The translations under genes and the position numbers were made by a program. The notes under the pieces are model-generated. The model was not told where the DNA came from. It saw only the letters and a list, made by a program, of their open reading frames with translations, and ran no database searches. Shown piece after piece: positions 2,544 through 63,823 of a stretch of 64,000 bases of DNA. Position 1 is the first letter of the stretch. Each line of letters begins with the position of its first letter. Source of the stretch: Bacteroidales bacterium (GTDB lineage: Bacteria > Bacteroidota > Bacteroidia > Bacteroidales > UBA1402); assembly GCA_021373135.1 (NCBI GenBank), contig JAJFTH010000006.1:186001-250000 (forward strand), written 5' to 3'.

Positions 2544-2957
2544 ATGATCAGGTATTACTCAGAGGATTGTGATCTTCCCGGAATTGACCAGGATATCATC
2601 ACAGACTGGATCAATCGGGTTGCAGTTTCCCATGGGAAAAAAGCCGGTGAAATCAATTACATTTTTTGTTCTGACACAAGGATTTTAGAGGTAAACAATC
2701 AATATCTACACCACGACTATTACACGGATATCATCACTTTTGACTACTCAGAGCAAGCCAAGATTTCAGGCGATATATACATTGGTATCGAAACAGTTGA
2801 ATCCAATGCCGGGATGCTTGGCCTTTCTTTTGAATCAGAACTGAACAGAGTCATTATTCATGGCGTTCTGCATCTTTGCGGATTTAAAGACAAAACACCC
2901 GAAACAGAAAAAATAATGCATCAGAAAGAAGAGGAAGCATTAAAAATACACATTTAG
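2544..2957 (+). CDS. ybeY: Endoribonuclease YbeY / rRNA maturation factor
   Basis: 137 residues, normal family length. The family's metal site H-G-x-L-H-L is visible as HGVLHLCGFKDKTP near residue 110. The third histidine of the usual HGxLHLxGxDH motif is replaced (FKDK), with another histidine 13 residues on in MHQKEEEAL. The upstream block ITFDYSEQAKISGDIYIG matches the conserved core. Known role: single-strand endoribonuclease in 16S rRNA 3'-end maturation and ribosome quality control. It sits between spmAB and mnmG in a same-strand run. Confidence 0.93.
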   Translation: MIRYYSEDCDLPGIDQDIITDWINRVAVSHGKKAGEINYIFCSDTRILEVNNQYLHHDYYTDIITFDYSEQAKISGDIYIGIETVESNAGMLGLSFESELNRVIIHGVLHLCGFKDKTPETEKIMHQKEEEALKIHI

Positions 2958-2986
2958 ATTCTTGTAAATCAACTTTTTAAAAAATA

Positions 2987-4861
2987 ATGAAGTTTAATTT
3001 CGACGTCATAGTGATCGGGGCTGGACACGCAGGCTGTGAAGCTGCGGCTGCGGCGGCAAATCTGGGGTCTCAGACCTTACTGATCACAATGGACATGAAC
3101 AAAATAGCACAAATGAGCTGCAATCCTGCCATAGGAGGCATTGCAAAAGGACAGATTGTGCGTGAAATTGATGCGCTTGGTGGACAAACAGGGATCGTAA
3201 CCGACAAGACCGCCATTCAATTTCGTATGTTGAATCGTTCAAAAGGTCCGGCCATGTGGAGCCCAAGGTCACAAAGCGACCGTCAAAAATTCATTCTCGC
3301 CTGGAGAGAGATTCTTGAAAATACCGAGAATCTTTATATCTGGCAAGATACGGCCAAAAGCCTAATCTTTGAAAACGGAGCGGTAGCGGGTGTAAAAACC
3401 ACGATGAATGTAGAATTTCAGGCGAAAAGTGTTGTTCTTACGACAGGCACTTTCCTAAACGGATTGATTCATATCGGACGGACACAATTTTCAGGCGGGC
3501 GAATGTCAGAACCTGCTTCTGTCGGTTTAACCGAACAATTGAAAGATCTCGGTTTCACCACAGACAGGATGAAAACAGGAACGCCGGTCCGTATTGACGG
3601 AAGAAGCGTTCACTTTGATGAAATGGAAGAGCAATTGGGTGAAAATGACTTTCATAAATTCTCCTATCTGGATTTCAAGCCACGTCAACTCAGACAAAGG
3701 AACTGCTGGATCTGTTTTACCAATGAGAAAGTTCATGACATTTTACGCAGCGGGTTGGCCGATTCACCCCTTTTCAACGGACAAATTAAAAGTATTGGCC
3801 CTCGATATTGTCCCAGCATAGAAACCAAGATTTTCACTTTTGCCGATAAAACCTATCACCAATTGTTTCTCGAACCTGAAGGAGAAACCACGCAGGAATA
3901 CTATCTCAACGGCTATTCTTCTTCTCTGCCGCTGAATATACAAATAAAGGCGTTGAAGGAAATTCCTTGCTTTCGTGACGTACATATTTATCGTCCCGGC
4001 TATGCCATCGAGTATGACTACTTCGATCCGACACAACTCAAGCACACGCTTGAAACCAAATTGATAAAAAACCTGTTTTTTGCCGGTCAAATCAATGGAA
4101 CGACAGGTTATGAAGAAGCCGCAGGTCAGGGAATCATAGCAGGAATCAATGCTCATCAGAACTGCTCAAATGCAGCCCCATTCATTTTAGCACGCGACGA
4201 AGCATATATTGGTGTATTAATCGATGATTTGGTCACAAAAGGGGTTGATGAACCATACCGGATGTTCACCTCCAGAGCAGAACACCGCATTCTTTTACGG
4301 CAAGATGATGCAGATTTGCGTTTGACGGAAAGATCCTACCGGCTCGGTTTGGCCAAATCCAACCGCTATCAACTTTTAAAAGATAAGGTAAAACAGATAG
4401 ACGACCTACTCCATTTTTGTGACAACTATTCCATCAAGGCCAAATACATCAACGAATCTTTGGAAAAACTTGACACGACACCTTTGAAACAAGGCGTAAG
4501 ACTGACAGATCTTTTGCTTCGTCCACAGTTAAACTTCGAGAATCTCCAGGGATATATTCCTGCATTGAAAAGTGAACTTGAAAAAATAACAGACAGAAAT
4601 GAAGAAACAGTTGAAGCCACAGAAATACGTATTAAATATCAAGGCTATATTGAAAGAGAAAGAGGTATCGCCGACAAAATACATCGGCTTGACAGCATCC
4701 GGATTGCAGACAAATTTGACTACCAAAACATCCATGCACTTTCCATTGAAGCCAGACAAAAATTAAGCAGGATCCAGCCTGAGACCATTGGACAAGCCAG
4801 TAGAATCCCCGGAATTTCACCGAATGATATCAACATACTGCTCGTACTATTAGGAAGATAG
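2987..4861 (+). CDS. mnmG: tRNA uridine-5-carboxymethylaminomethyl modification enzyme MnmG (GidA)
   Basis: 624 residues, typical length. The N-terminus has the FAD dinucleotide-binding motif VIGAGHAGCEAA (residues 9-20), followed by SCNPAIGGIAKGQIVREID. The central block GTPVRIDGRSV and the later FTSRAEHRILLRQDDAD are family hallmarks, and the C-terminal helical tRNA/MnmE-binding part is complete. With MnmE it installs the cmnm5 group on U34 of several tRNAs. In many bacteria gidA lies near the replication origin, which matters here because a parS-like palindrome follows 6 bases after the stop. Confidence 0.97.
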   Translation: MKFNFDVIVIGAGHAGCEAAAAAANLGSQTLLITMDMNKIAQMSCNPAIGGIAKGQIVREIDALGGQTGIVTDKTAIQFRMLNRSKGPAMWSPRSQSDRQKFILAWREILENTENLYIWQDTAKSLIFENGAVAGVKTTMNVEFQAKSVVLTTGTFLNGLIHIGRTQFSGGRMSEPASVGLTEQLKDLGFTTDRMKTGTPVRIDGRSVHFDEMEEQLGENDFHKFSYLDFKPRQLRQRNCWICFTNEKVHDILRSGLADSPLFNGQIKSIGPRYCPSIETKIFTFADKTYHQLFLEPEGETTQEYYLNGYSSSLPLNIQIKALKEIPCFRDVHIYRPGYAIEYDYFDPTQLKHTLETKLIKNLFFAGQINGTTGYEEAAGQGIIAGINAHQNCSNAAPFILARDEAYIGVLIDDLVTKGVDEPYRMFTSRAEHRILLRQDDADLRLTERSYRLGLAKSNRYQLLKDKVKQIDDLLHFCDNYSIKAKYINESLEKLDTTPLKQGVRLTDLLLRPQLNFENLQGYIPALKSELEKITDRNEETVEATEIRIKYQGYIERERGIADKIHRLDSIRIADKFDYQNIHALSIEARQKLSRIQPETIGQASRIPGISPNDINILLVLLGR

Positions 4862-8043: not shown

Positions 8044-8916
8044 ATGGATAAAATAACAGAAGCCTTGAACCAATATTCCAAGCTTTCAGTATCAGAAATA
8101 GAAGCAAAAGTAACGGCCATCCTGAACGAAAATAGGACCAAAAACCGCACTCAAAAAGTATATGAAACCATTTTGAGCTGTATAGACTTGACGAGCCTGA
8201 ATATAACAGACAACGAAGAAAGCATCGCAAACTTTACCGTTAAGGTCAATGACTTTGGAGATAATTATCCGGAACTACCCAACGTGGCTGCCATCTGTGT
8301 TTATCCTTCCATGGTTAAAACAGTCAGGGAAACCTTGACAGAAGGCACTGAAATAGCCGCAGTTACCGGAGGTTTTCCCCACTCACAGACATTTATAGAA
8401 ATTAAGATAGCAGAAACGTCACTCGCCCTATTGGATGGTGCTACAGAAATCGATACCGTCATACCCATTGGAAAAATCATGGAAGGCAAGTATGCAGAAG
8501 TGATGGAAGAAATCCAGGAATTGAAAGCAGCATGCAAGGATGCCAATCTGAAAGTGATCCTTGAATCCGGCATTCTCAACATTAATGATTTGCAAAAAGC
8601 GGCCATATTGGCAATGGAATCAGGGGCAGATTTCATCAAGACGTCCACCGGTAAGCTGGAAAAGGGAGCCTCCACCACAGCAGCTTATTGCATGTGCCAA
8701 ATGATTCACGAATATAACCAAATAAGCGGTCGAAAAGTCGGTTTCAAAGCAGCAGGAGGAATATCTACCACCGAAGAAGCATTAAAATATTATTGCATTG
8801 TGGAATCAGTCTTGGGTAAAGAATGGCTGAACAGAGATTTGCTTCGATTTGGAGCCAGCAAACTGGCCAATAACGTCGTAAGCGAAATACTTGGAAAAAG
8901 GAAAGAATGTTTCTAG
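8044..8916 (+). CDS. deoC: Deoxyribose-phosphate aldolase
   Basis: 290 residues. The Schiff-base lysine motif is seen as ADFIKTSTGK, and DTVIPIGKIMEGKY and GFKAAGGISTTEEAL match DeoC. It splits 2-deoxyribose-5-phosphate into glyceraldehyde-3-phosphate and acetaldehyde in deoxynucleoside catabolism. It is somewhat longer than the E. coli enzyme, mainly at the N-terminus. It is the last gene of the mnmG-deoC run and is followed by a strong hairpin. Confidence 0.96.
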   Translation: MDKITEALNQYSKLSVSEIEAKVTAILNENRTKNRTQKVYETILSCIDLTSLNITDNEESIANFTVKVNDFGDNYPELPNVAAICVYPSMVKTVRETLTEGTEIAAVTGGFPHSQTFIEIKIAETSLALLDGATEIDTVIPIGKIMEGKYAEVMEEIQELKAACKDANLKVILESGILNINDLQKAAILAMESGADFIKTSTGKLEKGASTTAAYCMCQMIHEYNQISGRKVGFKAAGGISTTEEALKYYCIVESVLGKEWLNRDLLRFGASKLANNVVSEILGKRKECF

Positions 8917-28993: not shown

Positions 28994-29292
28994 ACCCGCA
29001 AGGAGAAAGTCCTTCTATGTCCTATTTCCAGCTATTTCTGTGTGTTTTTTGTGTGAATAAGATGTTTTCTTAAAAATTAACTAAAAATTGCAGCTTATAT
29101 TCCAAATTCCTCATTAACTTTATACCATTAAAGGGAATAAATAGGTATTTTTGTGAAACCTGGAGGACATCTATGCACTTTGCAATCAAATAAATCGACA
29201 GATGAAACGAGCATGTTTGTAAAAACATCCAAGTTTATGATAAAATGGACATGTGAGTTCCATATGACCTTAGACGAAAAAATGATTATCAT
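28994..29292 (+). other. Intergenic region leading into the 94-bp repeat
   Basis: Gene-free. It holds a -7 box TATTTTTG at 29146-29153 with no clear -33 partner, then the first copy of the 94-bp repeat, which runs to the start codon of the next gene. I see nothing else in 28994-29140. Confidence 0.5.
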
Positions 29293-29295
29293 ATG
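29202..29295 (+). repeat. 94-bp start-codon-linked repeat, copy A
   Basis: This matches 63730-63823 (minus strand) at 88 of 94 positions without gaps. Similarity begins abruptly at ATGAAACGAG and ends on the ATG of the downstream gene. Inside it are a 6-codon frame (ATGAAACGAGCATGTTTGTAA, split as MKRACL then stop) and a 27-codon frame (29213-29296). Short complementary segments TCCA (about 29228) and TGGA (about 29246), and GCAT with ATGT, allow a weak hairpin in RNA. Its function is not known to me. Confidence 0.85.
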
Positions 29296-29296
29296 A
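29213..29296 (+). CDS. Candidate 27-codon small ORF in repeat copy A
   Basis: It begins MFVKTSKFMIKWTCEFH and continues MTLDEKMIII; its TGA overlaps the next gene's ATG by two bases (ATGA). Copy B holds a frame of the same length at the same place. Of six differences between copies, two are synonymous (Thr, Cys) and four change residues (F/L, M/R, I/N, I/R), so selection for a peptide is not clear. It may be a leader peptide coupled to the next gene or chance. Confidence 0.3.
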   Translation: MFVKTSKFMIKWTCEFHMTLDEKMIII

Positions 29297-29952
29297 AAAC
29301 ACTTCGTTCGCATTTGTTCTTTTTACTTTTACTGTTTCCTGCCTTTCTTCTTGCTCAGGAAGAAGATAATAATGGCTACCTTTTCCCTGATTTTATGCAA
29401 GGGACAGTTCTTTTTAAAAATGGCGGCGTAGAACCTGCAATGCTCAATTATAATTATATTACCAGACTCATGTTGTTAAAAAACGATAAAGGCCAGATGC
29501 TGGAATTTTCAGACTTGAGCAGCATCGTTGCAATAGACATTGACAACCGGGTATTCATTAAAGGAAAAAACAACGCGTTTTTTGAACAAGTTTCTGCCGG
29601 CAATGGTTACTATTATATACAATGGTTTGGAAAAATAGTTTCACAAGAAAAAGCTGGAGCTTATGGAACTTATTCTTCTACTTCGGCGGTTACCACTTAT
29701 TCAACCATCAATGCCGACAACAAGGTGATCCAACTCAAACTGGGGGAAAGGGTGAAAACGGAAAAGAATTGTAAATTTTATTTGAAAGTAAATGACAGTT
29801 TCAAGAATTTTGATTCTGCCAGGACGCTGGGGAAATTGTTTAAGGGGCATGAAGCCGAAATCGAAAAATTTGTTGCTGAACAAAAAATCGATTTCAGTAA
29901 AGCATCAGATATAGAACGTATGGTTGTTTTTTGTGAAAAGTTTGCAAATTAA
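29293..29952 (+). CDS. Secreted protein of unknown function
   Basis: 219 residues. A signal peptide (LFFLLLLFPAFLLAQ, cleavage probably after Ala-20) leads into a mature protein starting QEEDNNGYLFPDF. The mature part is beta-rich, with a Tyr/Ser/Thr-rich loop AYGTYSSTSAVTTYSTINA near 130 and a charged helical C-terminus. I do not recognise a named family; it resembles Bacteroidota periplasmic or surface proteins. The start codon is the last three bases of repeat copy A. A small membrane protein follows after 20 bases. Confidence 0.75.
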   Translation: MKTLRSHLFFLLLLFPAFLLAQEEDNNGYLFPDFMQGTVLFKNGGVEPAMLNYNYITRLMLLKNDKGQMLEFSDLSSIVAIDIDNRVFIKGKNNAFFEQVSAGNGYYYIQWFGKIVSQEKAGAYGTYSSTSAVTTYSTINADNKVIQLKLGERVKTEKNCKFYLKVNDSFKNFDSARTLGKLFKGHEAEIEKFVAEQKIDFSKASDIERMVVFCEKFAN

Positions 29953-62583: not shown

Positions 62584-63732
62584 TTATAAAAGTTTCTGTA
62601 TTTCTTTATTAAGATCGGAAATCATAGCGTCACGTGCCACGATGTTTCCTGCTTTGTCCATCAGGAAGAAAGTCGGCAGATTTTGGACGTTATAGGTGGA
62701 GAGATATCCGGATCTCAGGCTGTTTCTGTCGCGAACGCAGACCCATGGTAAATGGGATGCTCCGGTCTTCCAAAGATTTTCATCCGTGTCCAGTGATATC
62801 TGATAGATTTCAAATCCCCGGTCTTTATATTTGTTGTATAACTCTCTAAAATACAAATTGCGCGTGGCTGATTTTTCAGCTTGATAAGCCGTGAAATCCA
62901 GCAATATAACCTTGCCAATCAGGGAGGATAAAGGAATAGTCTTTCCATAAATATTCGGAAGTTCAATTTCGAAAAATGAAATATTATTCTTTTTATCTAT
63001 GACAATATTCTTGGTATCCCTATCTTGTCTAATCGCCTTTATCCCCTGGAGGGTCAGGTTAACCAGATTCTTGCTGCGGTCGGATTCCGGATAAATTGCA
63101 TTCCAAGAGGTTGCAACGGCTGCGTAATATTTATTATCGTTTTTATTGAACGGATCAAAAATAAGATAATTCTTTATGCGCTGAAACAGGGCGTAGTAAG
63201 CGGTACAAGACCGGGGGGTCCCGTAAATGATTTTGACTGCCATACTTCGGTGCAGATTAAGTGCCTCCTCAAATTTTCTTTGATAAACGGTATCTGAAAT
63301 TTGTTTGTTTTTGTATAGATTGCTGAGTGAGTCAATACATGCAAGTGTTCTGGATTGTGAACCAGACAGAATCTTGATCAGTTCGCAACATTTCGAACCG
63401 CTGACTGAATAATTTTTCCCAAATTTTTTGCCGTCGGCTTCAATTGTTACCGATGAAGCTGAATCTGCTCCCAGTTGAATGAATCTTTCACCAATGCGCA
63501 ATCTGTAGAATTCAGGAGCACCAGGCAGTGTTGCCTTGAAATGAAAAGAACCATTTTTTGTAAGTTTGGCAGAGTCCAATATTTCCGTTTTATTTATACC
63601 GGAAAGCTCGAAATAAAGCATTTTTCCTTTGGCATTGCTGATTTTTCCTTCAACTTCAAATTTTGGAGTTTTGGAGCAGGCGGAGAAGAGCATCAAAAGG
63701 ATGATTCCTAAAGAAATGGTTTGGTGTTTCAT
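62584..63732 (-). CDS. DUF4369/TlpA-like lipoprotein lacking the CxxC redox site
   Basis: 382 residues. A lipoprotein signal ends LMLFSAC (Cys near 19). A DUF4369 domain (about 25-120, FEVEGKISNAKGKMLYFEL) is followed by a helical middle and a thioredoxin-like C-terminus (about 245-382). In the latter VILLDFTAYQAEKSATRN aligns with the TlpA/ResA active site, but the expected WCxPC is replaced by YQAEKS, so it cannot do thiol-disulfide exchange there. The cis-Pro region LPTFFLMDKAGNIVARD is kept. Its start codon is the end of repeat copy B. Confidence 0.85.
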   Translation of the reverse strand: MKHQTISLGIILLMLFSACSKTPKFEVEGKISNAKGKMLYFELSGINKTEILDSAKLTKNGSFHFKATLPGAPEFYRLRIGERFIQLGADSASSVTIEADGKKFGKNYSVSGSKCCELIKILSGSQSRTLACIDSLSNLYKNKQISDTVYQRKFEEALNLHRSMAVKIIYGTPRSCTAYYALFQRIKNYLIFDPFNKNDNKYYAAVATSWNAIYPESDRSKNLVNLTLQGIKAIRQDRDTKNIVIDKKNNISFFEIELPNIYGKTIPLSSLIGKVILLDFTAYQAEKSATRNLYFRELYNKYKDRGFEIYQISLDTDENLWKTGASHLPWVCVRDRNSLRSGYLSTYNVQNLPTFFLMDKAGNIVARDAMISDLNKEIQKLL

Positions 63733-63812
63733 CTGATATTCATTTTTTCGTCTAAGGTCCTATGGAACTCGCATGTCCATTTTATCATAAGCTTGGACGT
63801 TTTTACAAACAT
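63729..63812 (-). CDS. Candidate 27-codon small ORF in repeat copy B
   Basis: Counterpart of the frame at 29213-29296: it begins MFVKTSKLMIKWTCEFH and continues RTLDEKMNIR. Its TGA overlaps the ATG of the lipoprotein gene. Translation is unproven. Confidence 0.3.
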   Translation of the reverse strand: MFVKTSKLMIKWTCEFHRTLDEKMNIR

Positions 63813-63823
63813 GCTCGTTTCAT
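63730..63823 (-). repeat. 94-bp start-codon-linked repeat, copy B
   Basis: Inverted relative to copy A (29202-29295), with 88 of 94 identical positions. It starts 17 bases after the -7 box of a consensus promoter and therefore forms nearly the whole 5' leader of the DUF4369/thioredoxin-like gene. In this copy GTCCA and TGGAC, and GCAT and ATGC, are complementary and could form a stem. Confidence 0.85.

Follow-up and report, generated by a model that had tools for sequence, protein, structure and literature searches.

Mobile elements usually avoid or break genes. Rickettsia palindromic elements, short mobile palindromes that insert in frame within coding sequences, coexist with working genes, and the repeat described here is likewise short, mobile and found with working genes, but it sits at the start codon and restores that codon. 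It was met in a 64,000-nt stretch of the draft genome of a Bacteroidales bacterium (UBA1402; GCA_021373135.1, contig JAJFTH010000006.1, positions 186,001–250,000 of the forward strand; hereafter, the window) and represents a new family of non-autonomous, start-codon-targeting mobile elements that is widespread in Bacteroidota. In the reading that we consider probable, the repeat inserts at ATGAA start codons, recognises them by base pairing and is moved by an enzyme encoded elsewhere.

Among described systems, the element resembles the REP/BIME sequences with their RAYT, IS200/IS605 and the PATEs in being short, high-copy and hairpin-forming, in lacking terminal inverted repeats and any visible long target duplication, and in having a guide-like segment that pairs with ends resembling cleavage sites. 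It differs from all of them in its ~90 bp with two linked hairpins, in carrying the same ATGAA at both ends, in targeting start codons in sense and in the absence of a cognate Y1 gene from several hosts. The GTAG/GTGG that marks the hairpin foot of REPs is absent from the consensus of 75 elements, and the ends, ATGAAACGAGC and ..ATGAA, are direct, without the terminal inverted repeats and fixed-length target duplication of DDE MITEs. No Rfam model matched the element, whether the window was scanned at gathering scores or five element-bearing loci with E allowed up to 1, apart from chance-level matches elsewhere in the latter, and no description of the element was found in the open-access literature. 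Judged against Rfam, Pfam and that literature, the element is novel, and the first-pass annotation, made from the letters of the window, was right that the REP, MITE and riboswitch classes do not obviously cover it.

Integron attC sites are also similar, as folded single strands with an outer box ending in AAC/GTT, an unpaired spacer, an inner box and a variable apical structure, but the present element has no integrase context or cassette genes, its target is ATGAA and its boxes do not fit RYYYAAC; the likeness is a resemblance only. The BOX, RUP and SPRITE repeats of Streptococcus pneumoniae are, like the element, non-autonomous short repeats that are inserted into each other and judged parasitic, and BOX shares its modular variants (PMC3049150). 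Unlike the element, both BOX and RUP possess inverted repeats along with target duplications, SPRITE concentrates near the 3' ends of genes, and none of the three is described on start codons (PMC3049150).

Copy number, modules and position at gene starts

The window holds two copies of a 94-bp block, A (29202–29295, plus strand) and B (63730–63823, minus strand). Re-alignment bore out their location and their identity at 88 of 94 positions, with six differences and no gaps, as well as the unrelated flanking DNA on both sides. Similarity opens at ATGAAA and, as first described, closes on the ATG of each downstream gene, although the common block reaches three bases past it. The full unit is thus 97 bp with ATGAAA at each end: it opens with ATGAAACGAGC, and the ATG of its closing ATGAAA starts the downstream gene. 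A covariance model trained on copy A together with elements from other genomes returned exactly two well-supported matches in the window, copies A and B.

These two are far from the whole family. Copies in the host genome (G000, a 2.65-Mb draft) were gathered through similarity searches and reading of the flanking stretches: copy A, as type 1, gave 40 matches (best E 5e-65, far beyond chance) and a second version, type 2, gave 41. After the flanks had been read, at least 56 elements had both ends readable, which is a lower bound for the genome (the target-base table used below has 57 rows, one of them a duplicate). The elements start with ATGAAACGAGC and finish on a second ATGAA(A). Their 5' modules (GAGCATGTTTGTAA.., GAGCATGAATAC.. 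and GAGCCCATGATCTATC..) and 3' modules (CATATGACC..TCATATGAAA and CATCGAATACC..AATGAGATGAAA) occur in several combinations, joined at GCGAGTTNCAT. The usual length is ~90 bp, long forms near 170–180 bp have one extra internal domain, and nested or tandem copies have one ATGAAA in common. Copies at start codons that consist of the 3' part outnumber 5'-only copies in the host genome.

With open-frame length (at least 60 codons) used instead of annotation to call genes at element ends, 47 of the 56 elements end on the ATG of such a frame. Another two run into a following element within a tandem chain whose own end lies on a gene, so that 49 stand at a gene start directly or via a chain. Six of the remaining seven lie 10–130 nt before a same-direction gene, and the last lacks any sense gene within 400 nt, its opposite strand having a long open frame; in total, 55 of 56 are oriented in sense towards a gene. 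The proposals of a mobile or shared 5' module and of a start codon carried at its 3' end are both supported. Among 123 distinct elements from named genomes of the order, the next sense gene begins within 15 nt of the element's end in 74 cases and 16–300 nt downstream in 23; 10 have an antisense gene ahead and 3 fall inside genes. Taken together, the positions in the host genome and across the order indicate that start codons are strongly preferred and not obligatory.

The downstream genes are unrelated, as ThyA, Eno, LpxA, ProC, MutA and ApgM illustrate. Scanning 120 of their proteins returned 179 Pfam families, none present in more than three proteins, and many of the proteins are cytosolic housekeeping enzymes. 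The link to exported proteins made in the first-pass annotation is an accident of two examples, and a regulon of secreted proteins was rejected because the downstream genes are unrelated. A leader peptide was also rejected, since the frame from the first ATG stops at varying points or runs into the gene.

Within Bacteroidales, the covariance model detected the family in 64 of 198 genomes, covering 58 of 151 genera; in a phylum-wide draw of 296 genomes, 28 had it, among them members of other families of the class and of lineages outside it. The distribution is patchy and includes the cultured Draconibacterium orientale, Marinilabilia salmonicolor, Thermophagus xiamenensis and Anaerophaga thermohalophila. 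Carriage by phages or plasmids was rejected, given three matches among 2.9 million viral contigs and no element in phage and plasmid records.

The long forms merit a separate remark. Their extra structured domain (GTTTTAAGTAGCGA..TATGCNGAGTCACGCAAAAC) is common to two different element types (the 2907–3180 region of locus L030, equal to C6:440257–440521; L035, L073, L224 and others) and, among the loci compared, was seen solely in the host genome. This domain may itself be another mini-element that sits within the first.

Empty sites and targets of insertion

Orthologues in sister species (G001, G002 and G003) were located for many element-bearing genes, so that the comparisons are between species, not strains. 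Upstream of the methylmalonyl-CoA mutase gene (MutA), caattaggaatcaattaagaga is common to the host and G001; ATGAAACCAGATTTC follows directly within ~10 bases of it in G001, and the host genome has 88 bp of element between. The phosphoglycerate mutase gene ApgM has the same pattern in G001, with the end of the upstream gene as landmark, and PdxB has an empty site in G002 and G003 over a shorter flank. The orthologous empty site that generally identifies a mobile element was thus found at all three loci.

Most element-free orthologues begin with ATGAA, compared with 66 of 227 ordinary genes, so the target preceded the insertion, and the element duplicates or replaces a start codon and does not create one. 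The earlier suggestion that the element brings the start codon therefore stands in that an ATG sits at its 3' end, and falls in that the codon was usually there already. Insertion is precise at these pre-existing codons, and elements stack in tandem at the same site: at ProC, G001 has an element of a different version, and the host has two tandem elements behind the apparent 3' end of a third. Host copies are near-identical to one another and ~80% identical to those of the sister species, a mark of recent spread.

The base immediately before the target is T in 38 of 57 cases versus 25 of 66 ordinary ATGAA starts (p 0.002) and A in 3 of 57 versus 16 of 66 (p 0.005); the remaining upstream context resembles that of other starts in the host genome. 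The possibility that target bases are copied into the guide-like segment was rejected, since the base left of the insertion does not track N1 of the inserted element's guide. Mobility and start-codon targeting are well supported.

Folding, candidate guide and the proposed route of movement

Folding was assessed on 75 aligned elements gathered by an exact pattern for the fixed parts. Because that pattern preset the fixed parts, only the free positions (pairs 83–86/113–116 and 12–14/69–71) count as evidence of covariation. Two helices, AAC-GA-GCNNN/NNNGC-GA-GTT (helix A) and CATNNNN/NNNNATG (helix B), pair in 88.4% of cells versus 78.5% in shuffles and 16–37% when slid, and the covariation score of 0.234 versus 0.085 exceeds all 500 shuffles and all slid controls. 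The helix B pairs adjoining CAT/ATG are Watson-Crick in 110 of 123 elements versus 38 and 47 in shuffles. Among model-found elements of Bacteroidota outside the order, helix A itself covaries (ATGAAAT/ATTCCAT and ATGAAATC/GATTCCAT). The two helices thus covary.

Mismatches in the two variable pairs of helix B are mostly G.A (16 versus 2 C.T), which suggests that the coding-sense strand is the folding strand, as DNA or RNA. Helix B, at the 3' side, contains the start codon. An internal TTNCAT could pair with either ATGAA end, and its CAT would also pair with the 5' ATG, so the two ends would compete for one segment; for this reason, we regard TTNCAT as a candidate internal guide that may recognise the target.

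In the favoured reading, the element (~90 bp, up to ~180 bp) inserts beside ATGAA, with T favoured just before it, and occurs mostly where this motif is a gene's start codon and in the gene's own direction; as the element ends in ATGAA, the gene regains its start codon and insertion is tolerated even before housekeeping genes. For the movement itself, we infer that the coding-sense strand would fold as a single strand, of DNA or RNA, into two hairpins, and that TTNCAT would pair in turn with each of the two ATGAA ends, left and right, as well as with new targets. Base pairing would thereby recognise both junctions and the target, and cutting and joining would fall to an enzyme encoded elsewhere in the genome. 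In this manner, the element seems to solve the problem of gene damage, aiming at one short motif, the start codon, that can be returned intact, and so to spread before essential genes. The broader proposal, of a phylum-wide class that homes to start codons via internal guide–ATGAA pairing, rebuilds the displaced codon and owes its movement to a type of recombinase hitherto unconnected with such elements, is tentative.

Several observations weigh against this reading. A crude gene map of the window has 44 ATGAA sites outside coding DNA, 16 of them at starts and 28 not, versus 49 of 56 at starts for elements, and the excess persists (p 6e-6) when a generous 60% start share is assumed, the map being rough. 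Enrichment at start codons exceeds what ATGAA targeting and avoidance of coding DNA predict, so the model misses some factor, such as a transcribed or exposed strand, the context of initiation or selection that favours an effect on the gene. The guide role of TTNCAT, judged from pairing rules, is putative, and this segment leaves the fourth base of ATGAAA unpaired. Thermodynamic folding of copy A is unexceptional (z −1.5 as RNA, −1.2 as DNA). No copy carries cargo: in the loci examined, 5' and 3' halves separated by a long gap could be assigned to truncation, to other repeats or to the long form, and none came with a transposase, so an autonomous copy was rejected. No mobilising enzyme was found among the Y1, RVT_1 and IS110 families, tyrosine recombinases and others not having been searched.

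The main alternative without movement is a cis-regulatory RNA that controls translation and is retained at every gene because of this function, in which the 3' hairpin would hide the start codon, the 5' hairpin would compete for the same CAT, and a signal or upstream translation would shift the balance. The sense orientation, the location on the start codon and a covarying helix that includes this codon are all as such an RNA would have them, and mRNA structure close to the start codon tunes translation in Bacteroidota (PMC6847099). However, the downstream genes lack the common pathway of a riboswitch or any other common function, the sister-species orthologues are mostly without the element, the within-genome near-identity speaks of recent spread, there is no conserved upstream reading frame and 34 of 123 order-wide copies do not directly open a gene; we consider this explanation unlikely. 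The downstream gene may itself be regulated, given that the start codon lies in helix B and that nearby structure matters in the phylum (PMC6847099).

No known transposase accounts for the element. A REP/PATE-like identity, with a Y1 HUH transposase (IS200/IS605 TnpA or RAYT) acting in trans, is slightly less likely than the cis-regulatory RNA. The single-strand hairpins, guide-like segment and insertion beside a short target without inverted repeats are IS200/IS605 traits (PMC6006769), and 17 of 20 element-rich genomes have some Y1_Tnp gene, but there is none (PF01797) in G000, in the rich sister G001 or in G402, which is rich and 100% complete. At the Y1 loci examined, the flanking repeats are other, mostly GC-rich ones and never the element. 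RAYT was rejected as a partner when element-like copies beside the Y1 genes of G041 proved to be insertions within a broken RAYT gene. If a reverse transcriptase acting in trans copied a small RNA back into the genome, the 3'-only copies would be truncated products, and their excess over 5'-only copies agrees with this; such remnants can also come from deletion, because the 3' part stays held beside the start codon, and RVT_1, which a group II intron-type route needs, is absent from the nine element-bearing genomes tested, including rich ones and the single-contig G214. An IS110-type bridge-RNA element moved in trans would share the structure, the guide-like pairing and the lack of inverted repeats, yet the DEDD IS110 transposase domain is absent from G000 and most rich genomes. 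Both routes are largely refuted, the reverse transcriptase being highly improbable and IS110 marginally more so. For the preferred reading of start-codon insertion by an enzyme in trans, the family is common in Bacteroidota, including cultured strains, and this enzyme can therefore be sought. The elements also form a natural set of near-identical 5' leaders, placed before many genes of bacteria without Shine-Dalgarno sequences, which would allow direct tests of how structure at the start codon affects initiation.

Window features and further observations

The features of both window copies are collected in Table 1. Of the downstream genes, that of copy A has no Pfam match and that of copy B has DUF4369, as described at first pass, and the latter additionally has a thioredoxin-like domain.

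Table 1. Coordinates of the two elements, their parts and the genes that they open, in window positions
Feature	Position	Strand	Remarks
Copy A, complete 97-bp element, type 1	29202..29298	+	Covariance model 73 bits, E 2.8e-11; ends in ATGAAA opening a 219-amino-acid open reading frame
5' ATGAAA of copy A, copy of target sequence	29202..29207	+	Probably corresponds to the original start codon, judged from empty sites of other loci in sister species
TTCCAT, candidate internal guide	29258..29263	+	Can pair with 5' ATGAAA or, via CAT, with 3' ATG; sequence, with helices A and B counted on 75 elements; putative guide role
Helix B 5' strand, CATATGA	29261..29267	+	Pairing and covariation counts
Helix B 3' strand, TCATATG	29289..29295	+	Last three bases are the start codon
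3' ATGAAA of copy A	29293..29298	+	Element end; start codon and second codon of downstream gene
Gene after copy A	29293..29952	+	219-amino-acid protein, signal-peptide-like N-terminus, no Pfam match
Copy B, complete 97-bp element, type 1	63727..63823	-	Covariance model 66.5 bits, E 4.6e-10; helix B with tandem purine mismatch, CATAGGA/TCAGATG
3' ATGAAA of copy B, opens downstream gene	63727..63732	-	
Gene after copy B	62584..63732	-	382-amino-acid lipoprotein-like protein, DUF4369 and thioredoxin-like domains

Tandem arrays of two to three elements were seen in Thermophagus (L118, L136, L144), Marinilabilia (L082) and Anaerophaga (L117), where the two bases adjoining the start codon vary jointly with their pairing partners and the remainder is nearly constant. 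Three 3'-only copies (L033, C6:256123; L224, C8:177422; L227, C7:23937) are broken at nearly the same point, just past the helix B 5' strand; with this strand lost, the start codon would be freed. In G041, the copies inside RAYT genes (L214, ~1365–1470; L217, ~1360–1465) lie antisense, at TTGAA, with AAG replacing ATG at the 3' end. At L017, a DUF805 RNA (RF03081, E 2.9e-12; 8317–8385, minus strand) precedes another gene, ~600 nt from a copy of the element.
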